Source of the DNA: Ruegeria lacuscaerulensis ITI-1157 | GTDB lineage: Bacteria > Pseudomonadota > Alphaproteobacteria > Rhodobacterales > Rhodobacteraceae | Direction: 5' to 3' | DNA length: 64,000 nucleotides | Assembly (NCBI GenBank): GCA_000161775.1 | Contig: GG704595.1 | Span: 29,558 to 93,557, forward strand | In this document: in pieces, positions 10,103-42,594 of the stretch | Position numbering within the stretch: the stretch's first letter is position 1 | Layout of the letters: the number at the start of each line of letters is the position of its first letter | Translations under genes and position numbers: made by a program | The notes under the pieces: generated by a model | The model's database searches: none | What the model saw: only the letters and a program-made list of their open reading frames with translations | What the model was told of the DNA's origin: nothing

Positions 10103-11086
10103 ATGTCCAAGATCACCGTTCTTCACCTTGTTGATGACACCACGGCCGGTGGGGTCATGCGTATGCTCGACCATCTTTCGCAGCTGCCCGAACTAGCCGA
10201 CGAAGTCCACCAAGAGGTTCGCCCGGTCAAGCGGACCGCCTTCAGCTGGGGCAGTTTCGACGCCGATGTCATCGTGTGCCACATCGCCCCCGGCTGGCGC
10301 TGCCTGCCGGCCTTCTCGGCCCTGCGGGCGATGCATCCCACCACGCGGCTGGTTCATGTCGAACACAGCTATACCCGGTCTTTCACAGCCTTGAACGTGC
10401 CGCACAAGCGGCGGTTCTTTGCGATGCTGCGCGTGACCTATTCGTTGTTCGATCAGGTCATCGCCGTCAGCAAGGCGCAGGCCGGCTGGATGGCCGAACG
10501 TCGGTTGGCCCCCGCATCCAAGCTGAGCGTGATATCGCCCCAGGTTGACCTGAGCGCAGTTGCCCGCGCAGCCGGGCCGGTCGAGGCGGCCCGGGTCATC
10601 GGTGCGATCGGACGGCTCGAGCCGCAGAAAGGCTTCGATCTGCTGATCGAAGGGTTCCGCATGTGTCCCAACCCCGAGGCACGGCTTGTGATCTTTGGCG
10701 AAGGCAGCCAGCGCGACCGCCTGATGGCCTTGGCCGCAGGCGACCGGCGGATCGAGTTTCGGGGCCACGCCGACGACCCGGCCGAAGCCTATCGGGCCGT
10801 GGATGTGGTGGCGATGCCCTCGCGGTGGGAGGCCTATGGGTTGGTGGCGGATGAGGCGCGCGCGGCGCGGCGTCCGGTTATCGTCAGCATGGTCGACGGT
10901 CTGCGCGACCGGATCGGGGCAAGCGGCGTGATTCCGTGCGGGTCCGATCCCAAGGCGTGGCGCAAATCGATCGAGGCGGTTCTGGCAGGTACGCCGCCGG
11001 TGGTTCCCGTCCTTGCGCTCAAGGCTGACAGATCCCGCTATGCACAGCGGTGGCAGCAGGTGTTCGATCCGGCCAAACGGTTGTGA
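10103..11086 (+). CDS. Family 4-type glycosyltransferase
   Basis: 327 residues of the GT-B/GT4 type. The N-terminal half starts ITVLHLVDDTTAGGVMRMLDHL with the glycine-rich acceptor loop. The C-terminal half has IGAIGRLEPQKGFDLLIEGFR, RLVIFGEGSQRDRL and VVAMPSRWEAYGLVADEARAARRPV, the nucleotide-sugar site with the conserved EX7E-like acidic positions. A cytoplasmic sugar transfer in repeat-unit assembly is expected. The ATG at 10103 gives the family's usual start; longer in-frame starts would overlap the preceding GT2 gene. It is the last gene of the polysaccharide operon. Confidence 0.9.
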   Translation: MSKITVLHLVDDTTAGGVMRMLDHLSQLPELADEVHQEVRPVKRTAFSWGSFDADVIVCHIAPGWRCLPAFSALRAMHPTTRLVHVEHSYTRSFTALNVPHKRRFFAMLRVTYSLFDQVIAVSKAQAGWMAERRLAPASKLSVISPQVDLSAVARAAGPVEAARVIGAIGRLEPQKGFDLLIEGFRMCPNPEARLVIFGEGSQRDRLMALAAGDRRIEFRGHADDPAEAYRAVDVVAMPSRWEAYGLVADEARAARRPVIVSMVDGLRDRIGASGVIPCGSDPKAWRKSIEAVLAGTPPVVPVLALKADRSRYAQRWQQVFDPAKRL

Positions 11087-11103
11087 GGGCGGCGTGGCCA
11101 CGG

Positions 11104-11526
11104 CTACGGCAAGGGGCGCCACAAGAACCAGCGGCAATGTCCGGGCGGGCTTTGCGTGGGCGTGTTGGCCAGGCGACCAAAGGGCTCGAAGCCCAAAGCC
11201 TCATAGAACCGCGCGGCGGCCGGGTTGGATGTGTCCAGCCACGCAGAATGACACCCACGCCGGCGCGCCTCGGCAAAGGCGTGGTCCAGCAACTGCCGGC
11301 CCAATCCGCGTCGTCGATGGGCCGGGTCGATCCATAAGGTCTTGATCAGCAGCCACCCATAGGAGGTGGCGCCATGCAGGCCGCCCACCCGGCCCGCACC
11401 GTCCTGCGCAATCAGCGTGATGCTGGCATTGACCCCTTGCGGCGCGGTTGTCCGCAATTCCGCAAGAAGGGCTTGCTCGACCCAGTCCGCCTGCCCGGGG
11501 GCGGAAACAATGGATGGGCTCGCCAT
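11104..11526 (-). CDS. GNAT family N-acetyltransferase
   Basis: 140 residues with the GNAT fold. The acetyl-CoA pyrophosphate loop is visible as RRRGLGRQLLDHA, preceded by the beta-strand LLIKTLWIDPA and followed by AARFYEALGFEPFG, the usual motif B end. The substrate is unknown. It lies 44 bases downstream of the glycoside hydrolase on the same strand and may be the last gene of the LacI-controlled operon, though the short gap alone does not prove that. Confidence 0.85.
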   Translation of the reverse strand: MASPSIVSAPGQADWVEQALLAELRTTAPQGVNASITLIAQDGAGRVGGLHGATSYGWLLIKTLWIDPAHRRRGLGRQLLDHAFAEARRRGCHSAWLDTSNPAAARFYEALGFEPFGRLANTPTQSPPGHCRWFLWRPLP

Positions 11527-11570
11527 CGGTCAGGCCTGTATCCATCGGGCGGAGACCGTTTCCGCGCCGC

Positions 11571-12848
11571 TCATGCCGGGGCGGTTTCCGCGTTCAGGAT
11601 CTCGATCACCATCGCGGCCGTCCAGGTAAAGCTGCTGCCACCGCAGGGTTCGGCTGTGACCGGGTCGTAATACTCGGCAAAGCCGCTTTGTTCGATCAGG
11701 CGCAGGCTGTCGTCGACGATCCGCTTCACGATCCGGGTCTTGCCCGCGCGTTTCAGCCCATCGGCGATCATGTAGTTCACGATCAACCAGACCGGGCCAC
11801 GCCAGTACCTCAGTCCGTCGAATTCGGGGGCCGCCGGGTCGTGGCTGGGCACCAGAAACGGGACCGTGGCACCGATGGCTTCCAACCGCTGGGCGATGGC
11901 CTGCGCGCTGTGCTCAGGGATGGGACAGAACGCCGCCAGCAACCCGCCGATCGAAGGGCTGTCGATCAGCGCCCCGGTGACCCGATCAAGGCACAGATAT
12001 TGCCCGCGGGTCTCACTCCACAGCGAATCCATCGCCGCTATCCCCGCCTGCGCAAAGGCGCGCGAGGCGCTGGCGATCTCGGTCTCGCCCAGGTCTTCGG
12101 CCAGCGCGGCAAGGTCGAGGCATGAGCGGATCAGGATCGCGTTGAATCCCGGGTCCACGACCCGGAACGGCGAGGCATCATGGAGCCTGGAATTGTCCCA
12201 GCCAAGGCCGCGGAAATGTTGCACCAGCCAGATATAGCGGCGGTATTCTTCATCGGTCGGCCTGTGCGCCGGGTTGGCATGGGCCACGTCGCGACGCTGG
12301 AACGGGGCCACGCCCTCGGTCGGGACGCGGGCCAGCGCCGCGTCCCAATCGACCGAGTTGTCGCGCCCCGATTCCCACGGATGGATGATGGCGACCAGAC
12401 CGGTGCCCTGCGGGTCGCGGTTGGTATAGAACCATTGGTGCCAGGCATGGATCTTGGGCAGCAGTGCGCGGGCCTGCTCATCGGCCAGCGCCCGGTTCTT
12501 CGCCCGCGCATGGATCCGCCGCACGGCGAACCCGGCCACCGCCGGCTGCGTGATGCCCGAGGTGGGAACCGCCCGGCCCGTGGCCCACACATCCGGCCCC
12601 GGGAAATAGCCGTCATTCATCTCGTGAAAGATGATATGCGGCACCATCCCGTCGTCCCACTGATGCCGGAACAGGGTCTCGATCTCGCGCCAGGCGCGCG
12701 CCTCGTCGAAATGCGAGAACCCAAGGGCGCTGAGGGCGCTGTCCCAGTTCCACTGGAACGGATAGAGGCCGTGGGTGGGCACCGTGTAGTCGCCCCGGTC
12801 GTTTCGGGCCAGAACGGCGCGGGCCTGTTCGATCAGATCCTGTTTCAT
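11571..12848 (-). CDS. GH63-like glycoside hydrolase (mannosyl/glucosylglycerate hydrolase type)
   Basis: 425 residues, cytoplasmic (no signal peptide), resembling the compact (alpha/alpha)6-barrel hydrolases of the mannosylglycerate/glucosylglycerate hydrolase group. Visible blocks are YPFQWNWDSAL near the N-terminus, WDDGMVPHI, HPWESGRDNSVDWD (which holds the likely acid residue) and the C-terminal YWRGPVWLIVNY and FAEYYDPVTAEPCGG...FTWTAA (which holds the likely base region). It should cleave a glycoside brought in by the ABC transporter encoded directly upstream, 10 bases away. The substrate (glucosylglycerol, glucosyl- or mannosylglycerate, or a small oligosaccharide) is inference. Confidence 0.75.
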   Translation of the reverse strand: MKQDLIEQARAVLARNDRGDYTVPTHGLYPFQWNWDSALSALGFSHFDEARAWREIETLFRHQWDDGMVPHIIFHEMNDGYFPGPDVWATGRAVPTSGITQPAVAGFAVRRIHARAKNRALADEQARALLPKIHAWHQWFYTNRDPQGTGLVAIIHPWESGRDNSVDWDAALARVPTEGVAPFQRRDVAHANPAHRPTDEEYRRYIWLVQHFRGLGWDNSRLHDASPFRVVDPGFNAILIRSCLDLAALAEDLGETEIASASRAFAQAGIAAMDSLWSETRGQYLCLDRVTGALIDSPSIGGLLAAFCPIPEHSAQAIAQRLEAIGATVPFLVPSHDPAAPEFDGLRYWRGPVWLIVNYMIADGLKRAGKTRIVKRIVDDSLRLIEQSGFAEYYDPVTAEPCGGSSFTWTAAMVIEILNAETAPA

Positions 12849-12858
12849 TGCACGCTCC

Positions 12859-13899
12859 TCAGGCCACGGCTAGGGTTGTTTCGGGGTCGAACCAGCGCAC
12901 CCTGTCGGGCTGCGGGGCCAGGGTCAGGGTGTCGCCGCGGCGGACGGTCAGATCGCTGTCCAAAACCGCGCGGAACAGGGCGCCATCCACGCTGCAGGTG
13001 ACAAGCAGATGCGCGCCCAGTGGTTCGACGACCTTGACCATGGCGGCCAGGCCCGTGTCGGCCGGGCGCAGATCCTCGGGGCGGATGGCGAAATGCAGCG
13101 GCGTGGTCCGGGACGGCCCGTCGAGGATCTGGCCCGCGACGGTCCATTTTCCATCTCCGGCCGGGGTGGCGGGCAGGAAGTTCATCGGCGGATTGCCGAT
13201 GAACCCGGCCACGAACTCGGCCGCCGGGTTGCGGTAGACCTCGATCGGCGAGGCTGCCTGAACGATCTTGCCCTGATGCATCACGCTGATCCGGTCGGCC
13301 ATGCTCATGGCTTCGACCTGGTCGTGGGTGACGTAGATGGCGGTGGTGTTGCTTTCGGCCAGAACGCCCTTGAGCTCGGCCCGCATCTCCATCCGCAGCA
13401 GCGCGTCCAGGTTCGACAGCGGCTCGTCCATCAAGATCACGTCAGGCTCCATCGCCAGGGCGCGGGCCACGGCGACGCGCTGGCGCTGACCCCCTGACAG
13501 CTCGCCGGAATAGCGCCCCAGCAACTGGTCGATATGCATCAGGCCTGCCGTGCGTTCGACCCGGCGCTTGACCTCGTCATTGGGCAGTTTCTGCATCCGC
13601 AGGCCGAACCCGATGTTTTCGAACACGGTCAGATGCGGGAACACGGCATAGTTCTGGAACACCATGGCGATGCCCCGATCCTTGGGCGGCAGGTGGTCCA
13701 CCCGGCGCCCGCCGATCCAGACCTCGCCCTCGGTCGCGGTCTCCAGCCCGGCGATGATTCGCAGCAGCGTGGTCTTGCCGCAGCCCGAGGCCCCCAGCAG
13801 AACCATGAATTCCTGGTCCTGGATGGTCAGGTTGATGTCGCGCAGCGCCTGATAGCTGCCAAAGCGTTTCGCGACGTTCTTGATTTGAATTTCTGCCAT
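12859..13899 (-). CDS. Carbohydrate ABC transporter ATPase (MalK/UgpC type)
   Basis: 346 residues. The nucleotide-binding domain has Walker A GASGCGKTT (about 36-44), signature LSGGQRQRVAVARAL, Walker B VILMDEPLSNLD and the H-loop YVTHDQVEAMS. A C-terminal OB/TOBE regulatory region of about 110 residues, as in MalK and UgpC, follows. It energises import by the two permeases encoded upstream. The gene is in the minus-strand operon between a permease and the GH63-like hydrolase. Confidence 0.94.
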   Translation of the reverse strand: MAEIQIKNVAKRFGSYQALRDINLTIQDQEFMVLLGASGCGKTTLLRIIAGLETATEGEVWIGGRRVDHLPPKDRGIAMVFQNYAVFPHLTVFENIGFGLRMQKLPNDEVKRRVERTAGLMHIDQLLGRYSGELSGGQRQRVAVARALAMEPDVILMDEPLSNLDALLRMEMRAELKGVLAESNTTAIYVTHDQVEAMSMADRISVMHQGKIVQAASPIEVYRNPAAEFVAGFIGNPPMNFLPATPAGDGKWTVAGQILDGPSRTTPLHFAIRPEDLRPADTGLAAMVKVVEPLGAHLLVTCSVDGALFRAVLDSDLTVRRGDTLTLAPQPDRVRWFDPETTLAVA

Positions 13900-13920
13900 T
13901 AGTCCAACTCCTTGGGGCTG

Positions 13921-14760
13921 TCAGCGGTTGGCGATGCCCCACATGGCGAACAGGTATTTGCGCACGGCGAAGATGAAGATCAGCGCCGGCACGACCAGGA
14001 TGAAACCGCCCGCGAATTTCAGATGCAGCGGCGAGGTGTCGAGGTTTTGCAGCAAAAAGGCCGTCAGGGTCCGGTTCTCGATCGTCAGAACGGCGGCGGC
14101 GAACACCTCATTCCACGAGATCACGAAGGCGAAGATGGCCGAGGCCGTGATCCCCGGCAGGATCAGCGGCAGCACCACCTTGGTGAAGGCGGTCAGCCGG
14201 GTGCAGCCCAGCGTCCAGGCGGCCTCTTCCAGTTCCAGCGGAATGCCGGAAAACAGCGAAAAGGTGATCAGCACCGCAAACGGGATGGCCAGCGTGGTGT
14301 GCACCAGCGAGAGGCCGAATACCGTGTCATCCAGCCCGGTCCGGATGAACATCACCGCCAAGGGCAGCGCCAGCAGCGGCAGCGGAAAGGCGCGGGTCAG
14401 CAGGATCAGCAGGCGGAACGCCTCTTTCCCGCGAAAATCGAACCGCGACAGGGCATAGCCCGCCGGCGCGCCGATCAGGATCGACATGATCATCGTCAGC
14501 CCTGCCACCAGGATCGAGTTCTTGAGCGCGCTCAGGATGCCCGCGAAACCTGCAAAGAACCCAAGGCTGCCCAGATCGAATTCGGGGATGAAAGGCTTGG
14601 GAAAACTGTTCACCGTTTCCGGCGAGGACAGCGTGTTGATCAGCAGGAAATACAGCGGCACCAGCACCCAGGCGCACAGCAGCACCACCGCGGCGATGTA
14701 GACATATCGTCCGGCCCGGCGCGTATCGGGCGCGGCGACATCGGTCGTGACGGTCGTCAT
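13921..14760 (-). CDS. Carbohydrate ABC transporter permease (MalG type)
   Basis: 279 residues with six predicted membrane spans, beginning with a cytoplasmic tail and the span YIAAVVLLCAWVLVPLYFLLI. The EAA coupling loop reads EEAAWTLGCTRLTAFTKVVLPLILPG, which docks on the ATPase. It pairs with the MalF-type permease; the two genes overlap by four bases (ATGA). It belongs to the MalG/ThuG-like branch of sugar importers. Confidence 0.93.
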   Translation of the reverse strand: MTTVTTDVAAPDTRRAGRYVYIAAVVLLCAWVLVPLYFLLINTLSSPETVNSFPKPFIPEFDLGSLGFFAGFAGILSALKNSILVAGLTMIMSILIGAPAGYALSRFDFRGKEAFRLLILLTRAFPLPLLALPLAVMFIRTGLDDTVFGLSLVHTTLAIPFAVLITFSLFSGIPLELEEAAWTLGCTRLTAFTKVVLPLILPGITASAIFAFVISWNEVFAAAVLTIENRTLTAFLLQNLDTSPLHLKFAGGFILVVPALIFIFAVRKYLFAMWGIANR

Positions 14761-15602
14761 ATCGTGGCTCCTTTCGGGACACGCAGGGCGCGCAGGATGA
14801 TCAGGGTGAACCCGATCGAGATGGCGAGAATGATCAGCGCCATCGCCGCCGCCGCGCCGCTGTCAAGCAGGTCGAATTGATAGGCGTAGGTTTCGCTCAT
14901 GAGGACGGGGAACAGGGTGCCACCGAGCGCCAGGACCACGGCGAAGACTTCGAAGGCCAGTATCACGCGCAGCACCAATGCCGTCTGCAACGACGGGCGC
15001 AGCAGCGGAAGCGTGATGCGGGTGAAGCGTTTCCAGGGCGAGGCGCCAAAGACCTCGGCCGCCTCGTAATATTCCTTGGGGATCAGGCCGATCCCGGCCA
15101 CCAGGATTACCAGCATGATCGCCGTGGCGCGCCAGATCTCGGCCAGGGCGATCGCCAGGAACACCACGCCGGGGTGCTGATAGCTGAGGAAATTCACCGG
15201 CCGGTCCACCACGCCCAGCCCGGAAAGCATGGAGTTCAGGAAGCCCGACTGTTCGAAGATCGCCAGCCAGATGATTCCCGCGGCCAGATCCGAAATCCCC
15301 AGAGGGATGGTCCAGACATACAGCACCAGGTCGCGCCCACGCTGCATTTTGTTGACCATCGTGGCCATCAGCAGCGCCAGCGCCAGTTGCACCGGAACCA
15401 CCGCCGCCGCCAGCAACAGCGTGTTCTGCAGCGAGATCGGGAATTTCCAGTACCCGACCACCTGCCGGAAATTGTCCAGCGTGAATCCGTCGCCGGTGCT
15501 GAAGGCCTGTTTGGCGACCAGAACGAAAGGATACAGAAAGAACAGGCACAGAAACGCCGTCACGGGCAGGATCAGCACATAGGGCAACACACGAGCGTTC
15601 AT
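14757..15602 (-). CDS. Carbohydrate ABC transporter permease (MalF type)
   Basis: 281 residues with six predicted spans, the first being VLPYVLILPVTAFLCLFFLYPFVLVAKQAF, a common MalF/UgpA-type start. The EAA loop is YYEAAEVFGASPWKRFTRITLPLLRPS. It forms the import pore with the MalG-type partner that follows it. The gene is separated from the binding-protein gene by 100 bases that contain a perfect hairpin. Confidence 0.93.
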   Translation of the reverse strand: MNARVLPYVLILPVTAFLCLFFLYPFVLVAKQAFSTGDGFTLDNFRQVVGYWKFPISLQNTLLLAAAVVPVQLALALLMATMVNKMQRGRDLVLYVWTIPLGISDLAAGIIWLAIFEQSGFLNSMLSGLGVVDRPVNFLSYQHPGVVFLAIALAEIWRATAIMLVILVAGIGLIPKEYYEAAEVFGASPWKRFTRITLPLLRPSLQTALVLRVILAFEVFAVVLALGGTLFPVLMSETYAYQFDLLDSGAAAAMALIILAISIGFTLIILRALRVPKGATI

Positions 15603-15656
15603 CAGATCGCTCCTTTCCTCGCGGAAGGTCCGGTGGTTTCGGGCAGAGAGTTCGGG

Positions 15657-15685
15657 GACACCGGGCCTGCGTTAAGCCCGGTGTC
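15657..15685 (-). other. Intra-operon stem-loop between binding protein and permease genes
   Basis: Perfect 10-base arms, GACACCGGGC at 15657-15666 and GCCCGGTGTC at 15676-15685, enclose a nine-base loop. There is no U-tract, so it is not a full terminator. In many sugar ABC operons a stem-loop here stabilises the upstream mRNA or causes partial termination, giving more binding protein than permease. That role is inferred from position. Confidence 0.6.
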
Positions 15686-15702
15686 AGGATCAGGTCAGAC
15701 CC

Positions 15703-16971
15703 TTATTCGACGGGGCATGGTCCGTCCGAAGGCGCATCCGGAGCCCAGCAGGGCGCGCCGGTTTCCTGCATGATCGCCTCCAGCGCGCTTTTCTGATCGT
15801 CCAGCACGGTGCGGATGTCCTGACCGGCCAGCACGATCCGCTCGAACGCGTCGGTATAGACACGGTTGAAGTCACCGCCCTTGTCGCCCAGTCCCGCGGG
15901 CAGCAGGCCGGGGTTGGCATCAGCCGAGCCGCTCATCTTGGCGACCGCGTCGCCTGCGGCCTTGACGGCCGGCGGCAGGTCGTCGGGCAGGTCAACCGCG
16001 ACGACCGGGAAGAAGTTCGTCGCACGCAGCGTGGCGATCTGGGTTTCCGGTTTCATCATATAGGCGACCAGAGCCTTCGACGCCTCCATGTCGGGGGCCG
16101 TCCGGGGGATCGCAACCCCAGCCAGAACCGGCATGAAGCCGCGCCCGGTCGGGCCCGCCGGGGCCGGGAAGGCCACGAAGTCATCGGGCCGCTCGTTGAA
16201 GGCCTGCGCCAGACGCGAGGTGTGGTCGAACACGATCCAGGCATCGCCCGACAACAACTGTTCCTGCATGAACGAGAAATTGGTCGAGGCCGGGTTGGTA
16301 TGCGTCCACAGCTCGCGGAATTTTTCCCACGCGGTCACGGCATCGTCGCTGGCAAAGGTCCGCACCACGCCGTTCGTGTAGGACGGGTACAGATAGCCCT
16401 GGAAGAAGCGGTGCTTCAGGCCCTTGGGCCCGGCCGGGAAGCCGAATTTCGGCTCGCCCGTCGCCTCGTGCACATTGGCCGCCCAAGCGATCAACTGGTC
16501 ATAGGTCAGCGCGTTGATGTCGGCGCCCTCGGGCAAATACTGCAGCGCCTCTTTGTTGGCCGCCATGATATAGCTGGCCTGCATCCAAGGGATATACTGC
16601 AGGCTGTCTGTGCCCAGCTTGGCGAGTTCATTGAACGTGTCCGAGGCCGAGGCGATGCCCAGATCATCGAGGTCGACCAGATCATCGGGATTCATCGCCG
16701 AAAAATCGCCATGCAGCGCGCCCAGCACGCCGATCGTGCCCGAGCCGGCCTGCAATTCGGCTTGCAGGCGCGTCAGCCAGGGACCTGCGTCATTGGGTTG
16801 GTAGTCCACGCCACCCTCGAAGCCTGAAAGAACCTGTTCGCGCATGGCCTGCGCCTCTTCGACCGGCTTGGCCTGTGTCGACCAGAACAGAACCTCGGCC
16901 TGCGCCACGTTTGTGGCCAGGGCCAGAACAAGGCCGGATGCGGCACCGACCAGCTTGGATTGAATTGACAT
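15703..16971 (-). CDS. Carbohydrate ABC transporter substrate-binding protein (family 1)
   Basis: 422 residues. A signal peptide of about 25 residues ends VAQA; the mature periplasmic protein begins EVLFWSTQAKPVEEAQAMREQVL. It has the size and fold pattern of family 1 extracellular solute-binding proteins, with DSLQYIPWMQASYIMAANKEAL and ALVAYMMKPETQ as typical segments. It delivers the substrate to the two permeases. It is the first gene of the minus-strand operon, opposite lacI-type regulator DNA. The substrate is not readable from the sequence; the adjacent GH63-like hydrolase suggests a small glycoside. Confidence 0.92.
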   Translation of the reverse strand: MSIQSKLVGAASGLVLALATNVAQAEVLFWSTQAKPVEEAQAMREQVLSGFEGGVDYQPNDAGPWLTRLQAELQAGSGTIGVLGALHGDFSAMNPDDLVDLDDLGIASASDTFNELAKLGTDSLQYIPWMQASYIMAANKEALQYLPEGADINALTYDQLIAWAANVHEATGEPKFGFPAGPKGLKHRFFQGYLYPSYTNGVVRTFASDDAVTAWEKFRELWTHTNPASTNFSFMQEQLLSGDAWIVFDHTSRLAQAFNERPDDFVAFPAPAGPTGRGFMPVLAGVAIPRTAPDMEASKALVAYMMKPETQIATLRATNFFPVVAVDLPDDLPPAVKAAGDAVAKMSGSADANPGLLPAGLGDKGGDFNRVYTDAFERIVLAGQDIRTVLDDQKSALEAIMQETGAPCWAPDAPSDGPCPVE

Positions 16972-17082
16972 GGACTCCTCCCAGAGTTTCGATTGGGCCT
17001 TTTGCCCGTTCTGCCCGGTGGGGTCGGTTTGCTGTGCGTGTCGTGCGGCGACTCACCCCAGGCGATGCCATTAGCATGGTAT

Positions 17083-17093
17083 AACGATATATC
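17083..17093. promoter_or_regulatory. Putative LacI-family operator 1
   Basis: AACGATATATC with a central CpG, embedded in an imperfect TATA-ACGA-TATA dyad, 112 bases upstream of the binding-protein start. The same 11 bases recur at 17194-17204. LacI-family operators typically have a central CG, so this is a likely binding site of the regulator encoded at 17218. Confidence 0.6.
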
Positions 17094-17193
17094 TCGCGTC
17101 AACGAATATTTTCCAATCGGTTGGTCTGAACTTCAGAAAATAGTGGGAATTGCTCGTTGCAATACCCATGTGGGTTGGGCATTTTGATGATGC

Positions 17194-17204
17194 AACGATA
17201 TATC
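17194..17204. promoter_or_regulatory. Putative LacI-family operator 2
   Basis: Exact second copy of AACGATATATC, 111 bases from the first and 13 bases before the regulator's start codon. It is placed to allow autoregulation, and with the first copy could support a DNA loop over the divergent promoter. That reading is inferred from spacing and identity. Confidence 0.6.
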
Positions 17205-17217
17205 CGAAGTCCGAGAA

Positions 17218-18228
17218 ATGCCCGCCAAACCCACCCTCGCCAGTGTCGCCAAAGCCGCCGGAGTTTCGATTCCGACGGTCAGTCAGGTGATGCGCGGCAC
17301 CGGGCGGATTTCCGATCAGACCCGAAAAAAGGTGCTGCAGGCGGCCGAGGCCTTGCACTATGTCACCGACTCGCGCGCAGCGTCGATGCGATCGGGCGAG
17401 AACCGGGAAATCGGGTTCGTTCTGAACCAGTTCGCAAACCCGTTCAACGCCGAAGTCGTCAGTGGCGCGGTCGAGTTGCTGGAGGCCGAGGGGTATCTGG
17501 TCTCGATTCTTGATACGCGCGACGACGCGGACCGGCAGGGCAGGCAATTGCGGGATTTCATCCGCAACGGGCGCGGCGGCCTGCTGTGGGTGCCTGCGCT
17601 GGAAACCAGCGCGCAGACGCTGGACCTGCTGCGCACTCACCGGGTGCCCACGGTGACGTTCCTGCGCCACATCAGCCCCGATTTCGACCATGTCGGCATC
17701 CGCAATGCCGAGGCGACCGAAACGGCCACGCATCATCTGGCCGATCTGGGCCACAGGCACATCGCGTTTTTCGGCGGCACCGGCATGAACCCGGTCCGCA
17801 AGGATCGGATTGCCGGGTACCAACGCGCCGTTCAGGCCAGATCGCTGGCCGCGCCTGTCATCTGGCCCTCGCCCGACACCAAGCGCGCAGGGATGGAGCA
17901 GATGCTGAAGCTGCGCGACGCCCACCCCGAGGTGACCGCCATCGTTTGCAACGGCGACATGGTCGCCCTGGGTGCCTGCTACGGGCTGATGCGCGCCGGT
18001 CTGGAGCCCGGGCGCGATGTGTCGATCATCGGCTTTGATGATACCGAGGACGCCTCGGTTGCCATCCCGGCCCTCAGCACCATGGCGGTTTCACCCAAAC
18101 GGCTGGGCCGCAGACTGGCGCAAAGCTTGCTGGACCGGATCAATGACCCGGACATGCCCGCCACCGTTTCCGAGGTCTCGGCCCGCTTCATCGCTCGCGA
18201 AACCACCGGGCCGGTCCCGACTGGCTGA
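17218..18228 (+). CDS. LacI family transcriptional regulator
   Basis: 336 residues. The N-terminal HTH reads TLASVAKAAGVSIPTVSQVMRGTGRISDQTRKKVLQAAEALHY, followed by the hinge region and a periplasmic-binding-protein-like effector domain with IGFVLNQFANPFNAEVV and ISIIGFDDTEDASVAIPALST-like segments. It is divergent from the ABC/glycoside hydrolase operon and almost certainly its repressor, released by the imported sugar or its product. Two identical candidate operators lie in the 246-base gap. It ends 13 bases from the convergent HxlR gene. Confidence 0.94.
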   Translation: MPAKPTLASVAKAAGVSIPTVSQVMRGTGRISDQTRKKVLQAAEALHYVTDSRAASMRSGENREIGFVLNQFANPFNAEVVSGAVELLEAEGYLVSILDTRDDADRQGRQLRDFIRNGRGGLLWVPALETSAQTLDLLRTHRVPTVTFLRHISPDFDHVGIRNAEATETATHHLADLGHRHIAFFGGTGMNPVRKDRIAGYQRAVQARSLAAPVIWPSPDTKRAGMEQMLKLRDAHPEVTAIVCNGDMVALGACYGLMRAGLEPGRDVSIIGFDDTEDASVAIPALSTMAVSPKRLGRRLAQSLLDRINDPDMPATVSEVSARFIARETTGPVPTG

Positions 18229-38614: not shown

Positions 38615-39517
38615 TCAGCGCCTGAGCGCAAGACGCGCAACCAGCCAGCTGACGATCATCACGCCGAAATCCACGATCAGCCATTGCCTCAGGATGCCTG
38701 TATCAGACATGTCGAAGGGCAGATGAAACAGGGCCAGCCCGCTGAGACTGTCTGGCAGTGAAATGACCAGCAATGCCATTGCGTTGTTGGCGAAATGCAT
38801 GGCGATGGCCGGCCCGAGTGTTCCGGCACGTGCGGTCAGATCGGCGCTGAGCAGCCCGAAAACGCAGGCCCAGACTGCCACGAGCATGGCGTTGTCTCCG
38901 GCGGCGTTGGGGGCGTAATGACCGGCTGCGAACAGGATTGAGGGGATTCCCATCCAGACCCATGGAGCGCGAAACCGGGCAGCGAGGGACTGCTGCAGGT
39001 AACCGCGGAACAGAATCTCCTCGGAACTTGTCTGGATCAATACTGCAGACAGGGAAAAAGGCAGCAATGCAATCCATTGCAGGACCGGCAGGTTCGGTTC
39101 CAGAGGAACCCCCATATCGTAGGGCGGAAGCAAGGCCAGAACCAGGCCGAGAATCAACAAGGCAGACAGAACCCGCCAAAACTGATCGATCACCTGTCCC
39201 CGCGGCCCGAGTACGGTTCCCAGACCGCGGCGTTGGAACAGACGCACGGCCAGTGCGACGCCCAGCGTGGCAAAGCCGAAGCTTGCCAGAAGAATCAACA
39301 TGGCCGCCGGAGAGGAGCCACCTTGCAGACTTGAAATCAGTTCGACTGAACCGGTGTTTGCCACCGTTGCAAAAAGGGCCAGGTTCATCGTGATGATGAC
39401 GATCCCGACCAGAACCAATCCCGCCAGAAGCCGCCAGAGTTCCGAGTACTGACGCGCGGGTGCAACCAGGGTTTCGTGCGGGGCGTAGGCCGAGTGCGCG
39501 GGTCCACGCAGTTTCAT
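38615..39517 (-). CDS. CPBP family intramembrane glutamic protease
   Basis: 300 residues with about eight spans. The three CPBP/CAAX (ABI) motifs are present: [12 protein letters not shown] (Glu166, Glu167, Arg171), FAAGHY (His200) and MHFANN (His241). These bind the catalytic water in Rce1-like proteases, so the site looks intact. It overlaps the upstream ABC-cNMP gene by four bases (ATGA) and must be co-translated with it, which suggests a shared function. The substrate is unknown. Confidence 0.9.
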
Positions 39518-42500
39518 CTGCCGACCTCGGTTTCCGGGTCCGGCTCGAGTGGGGTGTTTGACGTCAGCAGGCGTTCAGATACCGTGGTGAGGTATCCGGC
39601 AACGGTCTCGAGAAGGCGCACGGCAACGGTTGCATCACTTTCAACGACGGCGCGCAATTCTTCCGCCCCGATCCTCAGAAAGGAACAATCGGTTACCGCA
39701 ACCAGATCGAGCTGTCGGGGCGCTCCGGTGATGATCGAGAGATCCCCGATCAATCGTCCCGGCTCGACCTCGGATATCACGCGTGTTTCGCCATTCGCCA
39801 TTGTCCATTGCAGCCGGGCCAGACCCGATATGCACAGATAGGCCGCATCGGGGTTCTGACCGCGCGAAAAGATCTTTTGTCCGGCCGCGGCGTCATACCA
39901 TTGCGCAGAAAAGGCCAGCAAGCGTTGGTGCCTGGCGTCCAGCCGCGCAAATAGGTCGGTGGCCCCGATGACCTTGAGCTTGCGACTGAAATCCCCGGCC
40001 GTGTCATCGTCGACCGATGCCTGCGACCGAGTGACCCCGTCGATGCGCCCGTCCTTGATCTCGATGTAGAGGTCATAGGCCTCGGGGTGGGCAAAATGAT
40101 CCTCCATGAAGATCATGGTCGATTCAGGCAACAGTCGGCGCAGCTTCAGCCGGGTCTGCAGGCGGCTTTCGGAATCGTGGCTTGCAAGAGCCTTGTCCAG
40201 AATGAGAATGTCCGGGCGTTTGATGGCCGCGCGGGAAAAAGCCGCGCGTTCCTGGAACACGGTCGGCAGATTGGCGCCGCCAAGACCCGTTGGCAGATCA
40301 TATATGATGGCTGCCAGCCGTCGCCGTAGCCCCGCCTCGTTCAGAACTTCGGCGACCACGTCCTCGATCTCGTCAGCGTGGGAACCGGCCGTCAGCGAAA
40401 TCCGGCCATAGATCGCGTTTTCCAGCACCGTCAGGCGCGGCACGTAGGTGTCGGGGCTGACCGGCACGAACAAACCATCAAAAGAATCGTGCAGGCGATG
40501 TGCCTGGGTCTTTCGAATCGCCAGGATCTTTTCCTTGTATTCCTCGGGGAAGGTCGGTCCGATCTGTTCGGCCGTCAGCATGAACGGTACCGTCAGCAAG
40601 AGCGCCATCTCCCGCTCGGTCAAGCTGCTCTCTCCGGTGCTTCTGCGGCGTTCTTCGATATCCAGAAGGCGATGGTACAGATCCTTCGAGATGCCGAGGC
40701 GAAGGAACAGAGGATGATCAGCGCCTTCGCGACCGAAGGTCTGGTTCAACGTGTCCAGCACGGCGCTGGCGATTGCCAGCGCGTCCCTGTCGAGATCATG
40801 CGCTTTGAGCATGTCGAGAAACCGGGCGTCGCCAGCAAGCAATTCGGGCGAAATATCACGTGAAGGCGATGCAAACAGAAGATTGCCGCCCAAAGGTACA
40901 GCAGGATTGAACCGGTCCGGATCGAACCTGTACACGTATTTTTCCAATCCTTTTTCCGCCAGGCGCTGCGCCACCTTGTCCCGCAATCCGACGATCCGTT
41001 CGGCCAGATCGGGATGGAGCTTGGGATCGAACTGCGATCGAAGTGTGCGGCGCAACATGAATTCATCGATGCCCATCGCTTCGACCAGTTGAAACCACCA
41101 ATCGCGTATCTCGTCCTTGCTTTGCAGTCCGGCAATGCGTGGATCGATCCAATCGTCGGACACCGAGTCGGGCGAGTTGCCGGCCTTCACGGCTTCGATC
41201 TGATAACCTGAGGGCGCTTTGCGGGCATCTTCTTCATGTTGCGGATGGGTGCGCAGGGGCATCAGCAGGTTGTCCCCCAAGGTGCCGGCGAACAGATATG
41301 GCCGCGAGTGGGCATAGCCGATCCGAGCCGCGATTACGGCCTGGTGCAATGATTTCAAAGGATGGCCGGACAGGATGACCTCGCCCTGCGCCGGCAGCAC
41401 CTCGCGTATCAGCAATTCCGCAAGCGCCTGCCGTTCGGAATCCTGCGAGGCCTTTATCGCCACCCGGGCACCGCCAGGAATGGTCAGATCGATATCTTCC
41501 AGGACGGTTTTGCCGTCCGCGTCCCGCACGGTGATGTTGCGCAGCTCGATATCGCCGCGCAGATGCGGGATGGACTCGGGTTCGCCTTCGAACAGTTCCT
41601 CGGGGATCATGTTGTCGGGATTGAACCGCTCGGTCACGACTTGCCACCGCAGCGACATGTCTTGCAGCTGGTTGTAGTAGGTCAGCAGCTCACGCCATGG
41701 ACCGCTGAGATCCTTGTATGCCCCAAGGGCCGCAACCAGCGCACCAACCGTCACCTCGCCCGTGATCGCCAGATAGCCGCCGGCCGAATAGAACAGAAAT
41801 GGCGTCATCTGCGTGATCAGGTTATTGAGAAACTTCATGAAGAACTTCTTGTTGTAGATCTTCACGCGGATCTCGAACAATCTCCCCAGCCGATGGCTGA
41901 ACTGTGCCAGACGGTACCGCCAGCCCCCGTTTGCGCGCAGGTCGCTGACCCCTGCGGCTGTTTCACCGATCTCGGTGCTCAGGTGGCGTATTTCCTGGAT
42001 TCGCTCTTTGTTCAGCAGGTTGATCTGGCGCTGCAGGCGCGGGATCAGCCAGGCCTGCAGCGGGATCAGCGCGATCGCGGCCAACCCGAACCAGACGCTT
42101 TGCAGGAACAGAAAGGTGACGATGGTCATCATCTGCCCGAACTGGAAAACCGGCTGCGCAATCGCGTCGCCCATCAGCCCGCCCAGCGGTTCGGCCTCGG
42201 ACGTGATCATCGACACCAGTTCGCCTTGGCTGGTGGACGAGAAATAGGGTTTCGGAAAACGCAACATCCGGCGGATCAGGGTAAAGCGTAATCGACGCAA
42301 CATACGCTCTGCCAGAATGCCCTTCATCGTGTTGATCCGCATCTTCATGATGCCGCCGGCAATCACCGTGCCCAGAAAGGCAAGACACAGGATCATCAGG
42401 TATTGGACCTGGGTGACTGTAATACCAAAGAACGTCACCGTGCTTCCGGTGGCGCCGATGGCATCGTTGATGATTTTCTTGGGCAGTTCCAGCGAAGCAT

Positions 42501-42594
42501 AGAGAAACGGAAAAGACAGCAAGGTCAGCGCCAGCAGAAAGAACTGCTGTTTCTTCGAATGCTTCCAAATAAACGCAAAAAGAGTGGGTTCCAT
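39514..42594 (-). CDS. Degenerate ABC transporter fused to a cyclic-nucleotide-binding domain
   Basis: 1026 residues. Residues about 15-320 form a type IV exporter membrane domain with six spans. An ABC domain starts near 345, but its motifs are altered. Walker A is replaced by KASQDSERQA (381-390). The signature is PTVFQ (777-781) instead of LSGGQ. Walker B ends ILILDK, with Lys801 where the catalytic Glu belongs. The H-loop lacks its histidine. About 275 residues are inserted between the Q-loop region (FAGTLGDNLL) and LTVLENAIYGR. Residues about 875-1000 are a cNMP-binding domain with IGDLSIITGAPRQ as phosphate cassette. ATP hydrolysis looks unlikely. It is followed by a CPBP protease gene. 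The 246-base upstream gap is shared with a divergent DUF6478-like gene. Confidence 0.88.
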   Translation of the reverse strand: MEPTLFAFIWKHSKKQQFFLLALTLLSFPFLYASLELPKKIINDAIGATGSTVTFFGITVTQVQYLMILCLAFLGTVIAGGIMKMRINTMKGILAERMLRRLRFTLIRRMLRFPKPYFSSTSQGELVSMITSEAEPLGGLMGDAIAQPVFQFGQMMTIVTFLFLQSVWFGLAAIALIPLQAWLIPRLQRQINLLNKERIQEIRHLSTEIGETAAGVSDLRANGGWRYRLAQFSHRLGRLFEIRVKIYNKKFFMKFLNNLITQMTPFLFYSAGGYLAITGEVTVGALVAALGAYKDLSGPWRELLTYYNQLQDMSLRWQVVTERFNPDNMIPEELFEGEPESIPHLRGDIELRNITVRDADGKTVLEDIDLTIPGGARVAIKASQDSERQALAELLIREVLPAQGEVILSGHPLKSLHQAVIAARIGYAHSRPYLFAGTLGDNLLMPLRTHPQHEEDARKAPSGYQIEAVKAGNSPDSVSDDWIDPRIAGLQSKDEIRDWWFQLVEAMGIDEFMLRRTLRSQFDPKLHPDLAERIVGLRDKVAQRLAEKGLEKYVYRFDPDRFNPAVPLGGNLLFASPSRDISPELLAGDARFLDMLKAHDLDRDALAIASAVLDTLNQTFGREGADHPLFLRLGISKDLYHRLLDIEERRRSTGESSLTEREMALLLTVPFMLTAEQIGPTFPEEYKEKILAIRKTQAHRLHDSFDGLFVPVSPDTYVPRLTVLENAIYGRISLTAGSHADEIEDVVAEVLNEAGLRRRLAAIIYDLPTGLGGANLPTVFQERAAFSRAAIKRPDILILDKALASHDSESRLQTRLKLRRLLPESTMIFMEDHFAHPEAYDLYIEIKDGRIDGVTRSQASVDDDTAGDFSRKLKVIGATDLFARLDARHQRLLAFSAQWYDAAAGQKIFSRGQNPDAAYLCISGLARLQWTMANGETRVISEVEPGRLIGDLSIITGAPRQLDLVAVTDCSFLRIGAEELRAVVESDATVAVRLLETVAGYLTTVSERLLTSNTPLEPDPETEVGR

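Follow-up and report, generated by a model that had tools for sequence, protein, structure and literature searches.

An intact gene for a probable pseudo-ABC exporter with replaced ATPase motifs, an enlarged nucleotide-binding domain and a fused cNMP domain in Ruegeria lacuscaerulensis ITI-1157

We analysed a stretch of 64,000 nucleotides from Ruegeria lacuscaerulensis ITI-1157 (contig GG704595.1, positions 29,558 to 93,557; hereafter the window), which carries on its minus strand a single intact frame of 1026 codons, running from an ATG at position 42594, preceded by a purine-rich stretch, to a stop at 39514. The protein is composed of an ATP-binding cassette (ABC) exporter membrane domain, a nucleotide-binding domain (NBD) whose ATPase motifs are replaced, an insert within this NBD and a C-terminal cyclic nucleoside monophosphate (cNMP) domain. 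The whole gene (39514..42594; all its parts given below lie on the minus strand) was assigned as a pseudo-ABC exporter with a fused cNMP domain on the basis of the intact frame, the Pfam domains and the presence of orthologues and paralogues. An earlier interpretation of this DNA (the sequence-only reading) had given exactly these coordinates, leaving out the strand, and had described an uninterrupted frame of 1026 codons with a full membrane domain and a cNMP cassette, as confirmed here by open reading frame (ORF) and Pfam analysis. The genome of the strain encodes a second full-length copy, 52% identical to the window protein (locus L180, 7974-11015; G000:C1:282964-285975), assigned by homology.

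The N-terminal half of the NBD reaches the first DNLL motif (residues 345-447, 41254..41562), and matches to exporters in the PDB and NCBIfam extend to about residues 443-470. As judged by alignment, the Walker A remnant KASQDSERQA (residues 381-390, 41425..41454) has R388 at the position of the Lys, LPTVF (residues 776-780, 40255..40269) replaces the LSGGQ signature, and the Walker B remnant ILILDK (residues 796-801, 40192..40209) has K801 at the position of the catalytic Glu. The motifs quoted in the sequence-only reading are all present, its PTVFQ lying at residues 777-781, and its statement that the H-loop His is missing hinges on a one-residue register: D832 aligns to the H-loop position and the adjacent residue 833 is a His, but H833 was found in only 8 of the 42 closely related rows described below. 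The Pfam family ABC_tran matched residues 715-803 under its cut-off (22.5 versus 25 bits). By motif content, with the Walker A Lys, the signature, the catalytic Glu and the aligned H-loop His replaced, the protein would be non-hydrolysing, in agreement with what had been proposed before.

The motifs were followed in an alignment of 71 rows, comprising 42 of the Rhodobacteraceae type (close rows) and 29 distant ones, two of which, L036 and L037, also belong to Rhodobacteraceae genomes, and in a recount over 109 rows obtained by adding 38 further rows. The split or fragmentary L035, L128 and L129 were left out before counting, as were most near-identical Ruegeria loci (13 of 64 related loci were used); L107 equals L013 in sequence and is nevertheless counted within the sets of 42, 71, 105 and 109 rows, and the 109 rows include five duplicates, four of which are absent from the 105 used below. 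In the close rows Arg occupies the Walker A Lys position in 42/42, the catalytic Glu and the aligned H-loop His are each kept in 0/42, and the second and first Gly of the signature are replaced in 42/42 and 41/42, respectively. The second paralogue L002 likewise lacks the ATPase motifs, and other exporters of the same genome keep intact Walker A and LSGGQ sequences. Across the 109 rows, LSGGQ was found in none and a Walker A GK[ST] in four (L053 and, from one genus, L154-L156); the catalytic Glu was present in 28 and the H-loop His in 16. Both signature glycines are kept in one row only (L143), where Walker A is lost, and no row combines GK[ST], LSGGQ, Glu and His. Based on these counts, the loss is graded: the signature is gone everywhere and the Walker A Ser/Thr nearly everywhere, and the loss of the remaining motifs is fullest in the clade of the window protein.

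In a structure model of the NBD (mean pLDDT, the predicted local distance difference test, 85) the ABC fold is preserved, with the insert dividing it, and Foldseek aligned this model to the TAP1 ATPase domain with a template modelling score (TM-score) of 0.74-0.75, normalised by TAP1 domain length. The full-length model was poorer (mean pLDDT 69, predicted TM-score 0.43), with a poorly predicted membrane domain that gave low Foldseek TM-scores; therefore, the reading of the fold rests on the NBD model. The alignment used for structure prediction comprised only 22 Rhodobacteraceae rows. The insert spans residues 448-708 (40471..41253) and is common to the aligned rows of the family; it brings the distance from Walker A to the signature to approximately 394 residues, whereas three canonical NBDs encoded in this genome have 98-104. 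The insertion of about 275 residues noticed earlier is thus real, with a length closer to 260 residues between ends that were chosen by us.

Two stretches of this region resemble each other. Unit 2 (residues 510-625, 40720..41067), defined by hhalign and by hidden Markov model (HMM) matches, is an extra copy of the NBD helical region, and unit 3 (residues 655-770, 40285..40632), defined by HMM matches, with the ABC_tran match starting at 715, is the helical copy that runs into the signature. Profile columns 505-645 and 646-775 aligned to each other in hhalign with a probability of 98.4 and an E-value of 7.8e-15 over 92 columns, and none of 100 column shuffles gave a result as good. Counted by row (104 of the 105 rows are distinct), the unit 3 HMM matched the zone 506-650 in 105/105 rows and the unit 2 HMM matched the zone 651-790 in 104/105, with no match to the reversed proteins used as control. 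Within the window protein, the unit 3 HMM recognised unit 2 with an E-value of 9.5e-07 and the unit 2 HMM recognised unit 3 with 2.9e-07. On an intact exporter of the same genome the unit 3 HMM matched residues 437-480 (E-value 0.0017), between Walker A (402) and the signature (506); on the other control frames it found nothing below 0.01, and the unit 2 HMM found nothing below 0.1 on control frames. The repeated elements also align in the NBD model, where strand 217-219, helix 231-236 and strand 238-240 correspond to 372-374, 386-391 and 393-395 (337 is to be added for protein numbering). The agreement of hhalign, HMM and model therefore indicates that about half of the insert belongs to a tandem duplication of the NBD helical region: the aligned parts, approximately 520-612 and 676-767, cover about half of 448-708, and approximately 448-519 and 613-675 have no match.

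A third helical copy (unit 1, residues ~430-447) was considered and dropped, as the unit 3 HMM matches it in 3/105 rows and its own HMM matches other zones in 0/105. Its likeness in hhalign was weak (probabilities of 43 and 58), though none of 100 shuffles was as good, and this short motif may be a faded third copy that lacks HMM support. The insert matched no Pfam family, and no separate fold appeared for it among the best 50 of 874 Foldseek matches (E-values up to 0.001). With about half of it explained as an internal duplication and the other half matching nothing, we found no support for the new enzymatic domain suggested in the sequence-only reading; a small new function in the matchless parts, ~448-519 and 613-675, is possible.

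The cNMP domain (residues 903-986, 39637..39888) was identified by PF00027 (56.7 bits against a cut-off of 27.5, E-value 2.3e-15) and is homologous to a separate, adjacent ORF elsewhere. In such domains a Glu and an Arg are the key residues of the phosphate-binding cassette, which in the window protein was located by alignment of the fused rows at G950-R960 (GDLSIITGAPR, 39715..39747). The Arg at 960 is present in 48/48 fused rows, position 951 is Asp in 33 and Glu in 15 of them, and L002 as well as the 9 unfused proteins listed have both Glu and Arg. The paralogue at L180 retains the cassette Glu where the window protein has Asp. Among 50 loci compared, 23 were unfused, 24 fused and 3 encoded a membrane domain only. 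Each unfused locus has the homologous cNMP ORF immediately downstream and in the same orientation; in 21 of the 23 it overlaps the pseudo-ABC frame or is separated from it by at most 50 bases, and in L176 and L177 it is contained in an over-extended ORF. Since the cNMP protein is thus an older partner that became fused in some lineages, the gain of a cNMP domain finds no support as a peculiarity of the window gene. On a tree of 70 rows, the fusion state needs two changes, and the Rhodobacteraceae-type rows group in a single clade (SH-aLRT 100), within which there are two main groups of paralogues; the tree was built by a quick method and rooted on the long branches L036 and L037, which the program flagged, so that its deep order is unsure. 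Gating of the protein by cAMP or cGMP through this domain is plausible.

The type IV ABC exporter membrane domain (residues 1-325, 41620..42594) was delimited by PF00664, by sequence matches to PDB exporters and by column entropy: ABC_membrane matched residues 43-289 above its cut-off (E-value 1.7e-18), and PDB exporters matched the protein with E-values down to 7e-28. It is the most conserved part of the protein, with a mean column entropy of 0.71 bits in the 42 close rows versus 1.21-1.65 in the other domains. The same genome encodes, at L181 (8390-9331, minus strand; G000:C1:2157389-2158330), an ABC exporter membrane domain of 314 amino acids with no NBD in frame, which is 28% identical to the membrane domain of the window protein and is matched in 11 of 80 family genomes, its own included (E-value 1e-30). 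Two further NBD-less relatives of about 400 amino acids and 41-42% identity, L196 (8001-9197) and L197 (8543-9781), occur in two genomes in similar neighbourhoods, next to proteins that on inspection by eye resemble cupredoxins, a multicopper oxidase and a heavy-metal ATPase. These NBD-less relatives suggest that the membrane fold can persist without the motor.

Using the window protein as query (E-value 1e-60), matches were found in 31 of 149 genomes of the family and in 96 of 289 of the class, the own genome being included in both counts. A profile of 25 members (E-value 1e-80) matched 30 of 398 genomes of the phylum, 29 of them in the same class, and the lone match outside the class covers the membrane domain only. 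Among 72,556 plasmid records 261 matched, including 144 from Rhizobium and 80 from Sinorhizobium. The ratio of non-synonymous to synonymous substitution rates (dN/dS, Nei-Gojobori method) over the whole gene was about 0.10 against the nearest orthologue L066 (0.096/0.973), and by domain it was 0.04 for the membrane domain, 0.16 and 0.09 for the N- and C-terminal halves of the NBD, 0.09 for the insert and 0.09 for the cNMP domain, with 0.24 in the last 26 residues. All eight whole-gene pairs listed gave values at or near 0.10 or lower; dS ranged from 0.97 to above 2, near saturation in most pairs and with some domain values undefined, and the pair with L066 is the least saturated. The sequence-only reading had taken the retained length as a sign of selection and had pointed to shared substitutions in homologues and to the dN/dS value, with a value near 1 as the mark of decay, as ways of telling conservation from decay. 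Both now speak for conservation: the Walker A Lys is kept in none of the 42 close rows, so that a decaying copy is not indicated, and dN/dS lies far below 1. Because relatives are widespread, Arg replaces the Walker A Lys in 42/42 close rows, LSGGQ is missing from all 109 rows and dN/dS is about 0.10, we conclude from these comparisons that the gene is not decaying and that its design is kept under purifying selection in every domain.

Glycosyltransferase genes were found around the unfused loci. A conserved one (GT_B) is present in 18/23 unfused and 0/24 fused loci and a second (GT_A) in 16/23 and 0/24, within the stretch examined; the GT_A count leaves out L172 and L179, which match a third gene (GT_C) weakly, and GT_A and GT_B are divergently placed in most unfused loci. 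The Pfam matches of the neighbours at L195 comprise four glycosyltransferases, a histidine phosphatase and a methyltransferase, next to two ORFs without match, and this cluster (10911-17580), conserved in distant Alphaproteobacteria, is perhaps an undescribed glycan pathway. One stretch of Sinorhizobium meliloti pSymB holds a cyclase, a polysaccharide lyase, an importer, a glycosyltransferase, the pseudo-ABC gene and a Crp-like gene; the annotated S. meliloti and Phyllobacterium stretches carry an adenylate/guanylate cyclase, a polysaccharide lyase and an importer, which we read as peptide-type, and the Rhizobium johnstonii stretch carries an importer and three glycosyltransferases. A same-strand cyclase neighbour was found in 3 of 47 loci (L166, L177 and L173), a cyclase lies further off in L168 and L198, and a cut cyclase fragment of L201 had no Pfam match. 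The own genome has 8 cyclase-domain matches.

Taken as a whole, we consider it somewhat more probable than the contrary that the window gene encodes a non-hydrolysing pseudo-ABC exporter with a cNMP-controlled membrane domain, linked to glycans in the unfused lineages. The type IV exporter half-molecule would probably form a homodimer, in which the NBD, no longer hydrolysing ATP, would act as a structural and regulatory module enlarged by the internal copy of its helical region, the NBD pair transmitting rather than powering. The cNMP domain, which is a separate subunit in the unfused lineages, would bind a cyclic nucleotide or a similar small ligand, and binding would shift the conformation of the membrane domain, which would then carry out, permit, block or scaffold a membrane step. 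In the unfused lineages this step would most likely be the making or moving of an envelope glycan or glycolipid. The glycosyltransferase neighbours are most likely to be read as an ancestral tie to envelope-glycan synthesis; for the window gene above all, which is no longer near those genes, an envelope-glycan role is at best hinted at.

Several observations weigh against this interpretation. The distant rows are less degraded, having K in 19/29, R in 9/29 and G in 1/29 at the Walker A Lys position, the catalytic Glu in 16/29 and the H-loop His in 14/29. Since L154-L156 keep GKS together with a Walker B DE, lacking the LSGGQ signature and the H-loop His, some members of the family may bind or even hydrolyse ATP; these three proteins are possibly an intermediate toward the dead form. 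On the sequences compared, such graded loss is the strongest caution against calling the entire family dead. The cassette of the window protein has Asp in place of Glu, and the glycan role is borrowed from relatives, as the 24 fused loci have no glycosyltransferase neighbours. The other 44 of the 47 loci, the window included, have no cyclase so close, and cyclases are so common (PF00211 matched 304 times in 30 genomes, roughly once per 430 kb, at differing thresholds) that their adjacency is only suggestive; cyclase linkage was accordingly not accepted as proof of cAMP control.

We also weighed the possibility that the protein forms a heterodimer as its degenerate half, as in asymmetric exporters with one dead site, and that an active partner, perhaps encoded elsewhere, hydrolyses ATP. 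Several type I exporters are described as having degenerate sites (PMC7756269), the own genome has further exporters with intact Walker A and LSGGQ, and 26 of the 31 matching family genomes have at least two matches, though in some genomes these are pieces of one gene. Nevertheless, the loss of both Walker A and signature would damage both composite sites, neither the neighbour clusters listed nor seven loci inspected gene by gene by eye showed a conserved half-exporter partner, and the second paralogue L002 is also devoid of the motifs, so we regard a heterodimer as improbable. We assign the same low likelihood to a receptor or scaffold without transport, whose exporter fold would detect a membrane ligand or keep biosynthetic enzymes in place, with the cNMP domain reporting on this or modulating it: the persistence of NBD-less membrane-domain relatives, the high conservation of the membrane domain and the glycosyltransferases next to the unfused genes are consistent with it, but no output domain or partner was identified.

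That the protein works as an ATP-dependent exporter through an unorthodox ATP site appears still less probable. Such a site is suggested by the P-loop-like GxxGxGK of distant rows, followed by Asp or Glu in 24/29, and by the GKS and DE of L154-L156, but the window protein has substitutions at the Lys and the glycines of Walker A, in the signature, and at the positions of the catalytic Glu and H-loop His. That the gene is decaying and kept by chance can practically be dismissed: the motif loss itself, and nothing else, speaks for it, and it is already refuted by the dN/dS of about 0.10, the Lys to Arg change in 42/42 rows and the fact that many class genomes have long open frames.

The defining feature of ABC exporters is an ATPase. 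Within the proposal of a non-hydrolysing, cNMP-controlled exporter fold, we can imagine, as a speculative and rather unlikely extension, a swap of the driver, in which a cyclic nucleotide bound to the partner or fused cNMP domain, not ATP, would open and close the exporter fold, and the duplicated helical region would serve as the lever. If true, the ABC fold would here be gated by a ligand and let envelope glycans pass as a channel or valve, or move them as a flippase. The family would offer a natural experiment on the ABC fold without ATP, found in many Alphaproteobacteria, with the membrane domain under the strongest selection and a domain of the nucleotide-sensing type attached, and perhaps a path by which second messengers act on the cell envelope, testable in rhizobia and roseobacters.

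The window protein shares its membrane domain and its split NBD fold with MsbA, PCAT1, TmrAB and P-glycoprotein, which are ABC exporters of type IV (formerly type I); unlike them it lacks the Walker A Lys, the signature, the catalytic Glu and the aligned H-loop His, and it has the duplicated NBD helical region and the cNMP domain. With CFTR it has in common an ABC fold that would be used for something other than pumping, under second-messenger control, whereas CFTR is a phosphorylation-activated, ATP-gated channel that is not known to have a cNMP domain. Exporters with one degenerate site have likewise lost part of their catalytic residues while keeping the structure, but they keep one active site (PMC7756269), whereas the window chain has no canonical site. 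The nearest described parallel among the literature found is HetC of Nostoc, an ABC exporter in which an ATPase residue and the cNMP domain are both essential (PMC10986499). Like the window protein, HetC joins an ABC exporter to a cNMP domain, in its case one needed for function; it differs in keeping its essential catalytic ATPase residue, in having a peptidase domain and in the N-terminal position of its cNMP domain, which bound ppGpp and not cAMP (PMC10986499). The public names of the orthologues are generic ("ABC transporter transmembrane domain-containing protein", "cyclic nucleotide-binding domain-containing protein"), no NCBIfam model exceeded its cut-off among the best 25 of 82 matches, and no description of this pseudo-ABC/cNMP family turned up in the part of the library that the literature search covered.

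A match of the window protein to PF00381 (E-value 0.14) was discarded as noise. Downstream, with a 4-base overlap, an ORF at 38615..39517 on the minus strand encodes a membrane protein of the CAAX endopeptidase family, whose orthologue in Ruegeria sp. B32 is annotated as a type II CAAX endopeptidase; in 11 of the 50 loci a gene of this family is likewise found at this place, and in the window it is perhaps co-translated with the pseudo-ABC gene. In six loci of the L180 paralogue type, a conserved small protein, hydrophobic as judged by eye, is encoded divergently upstream.

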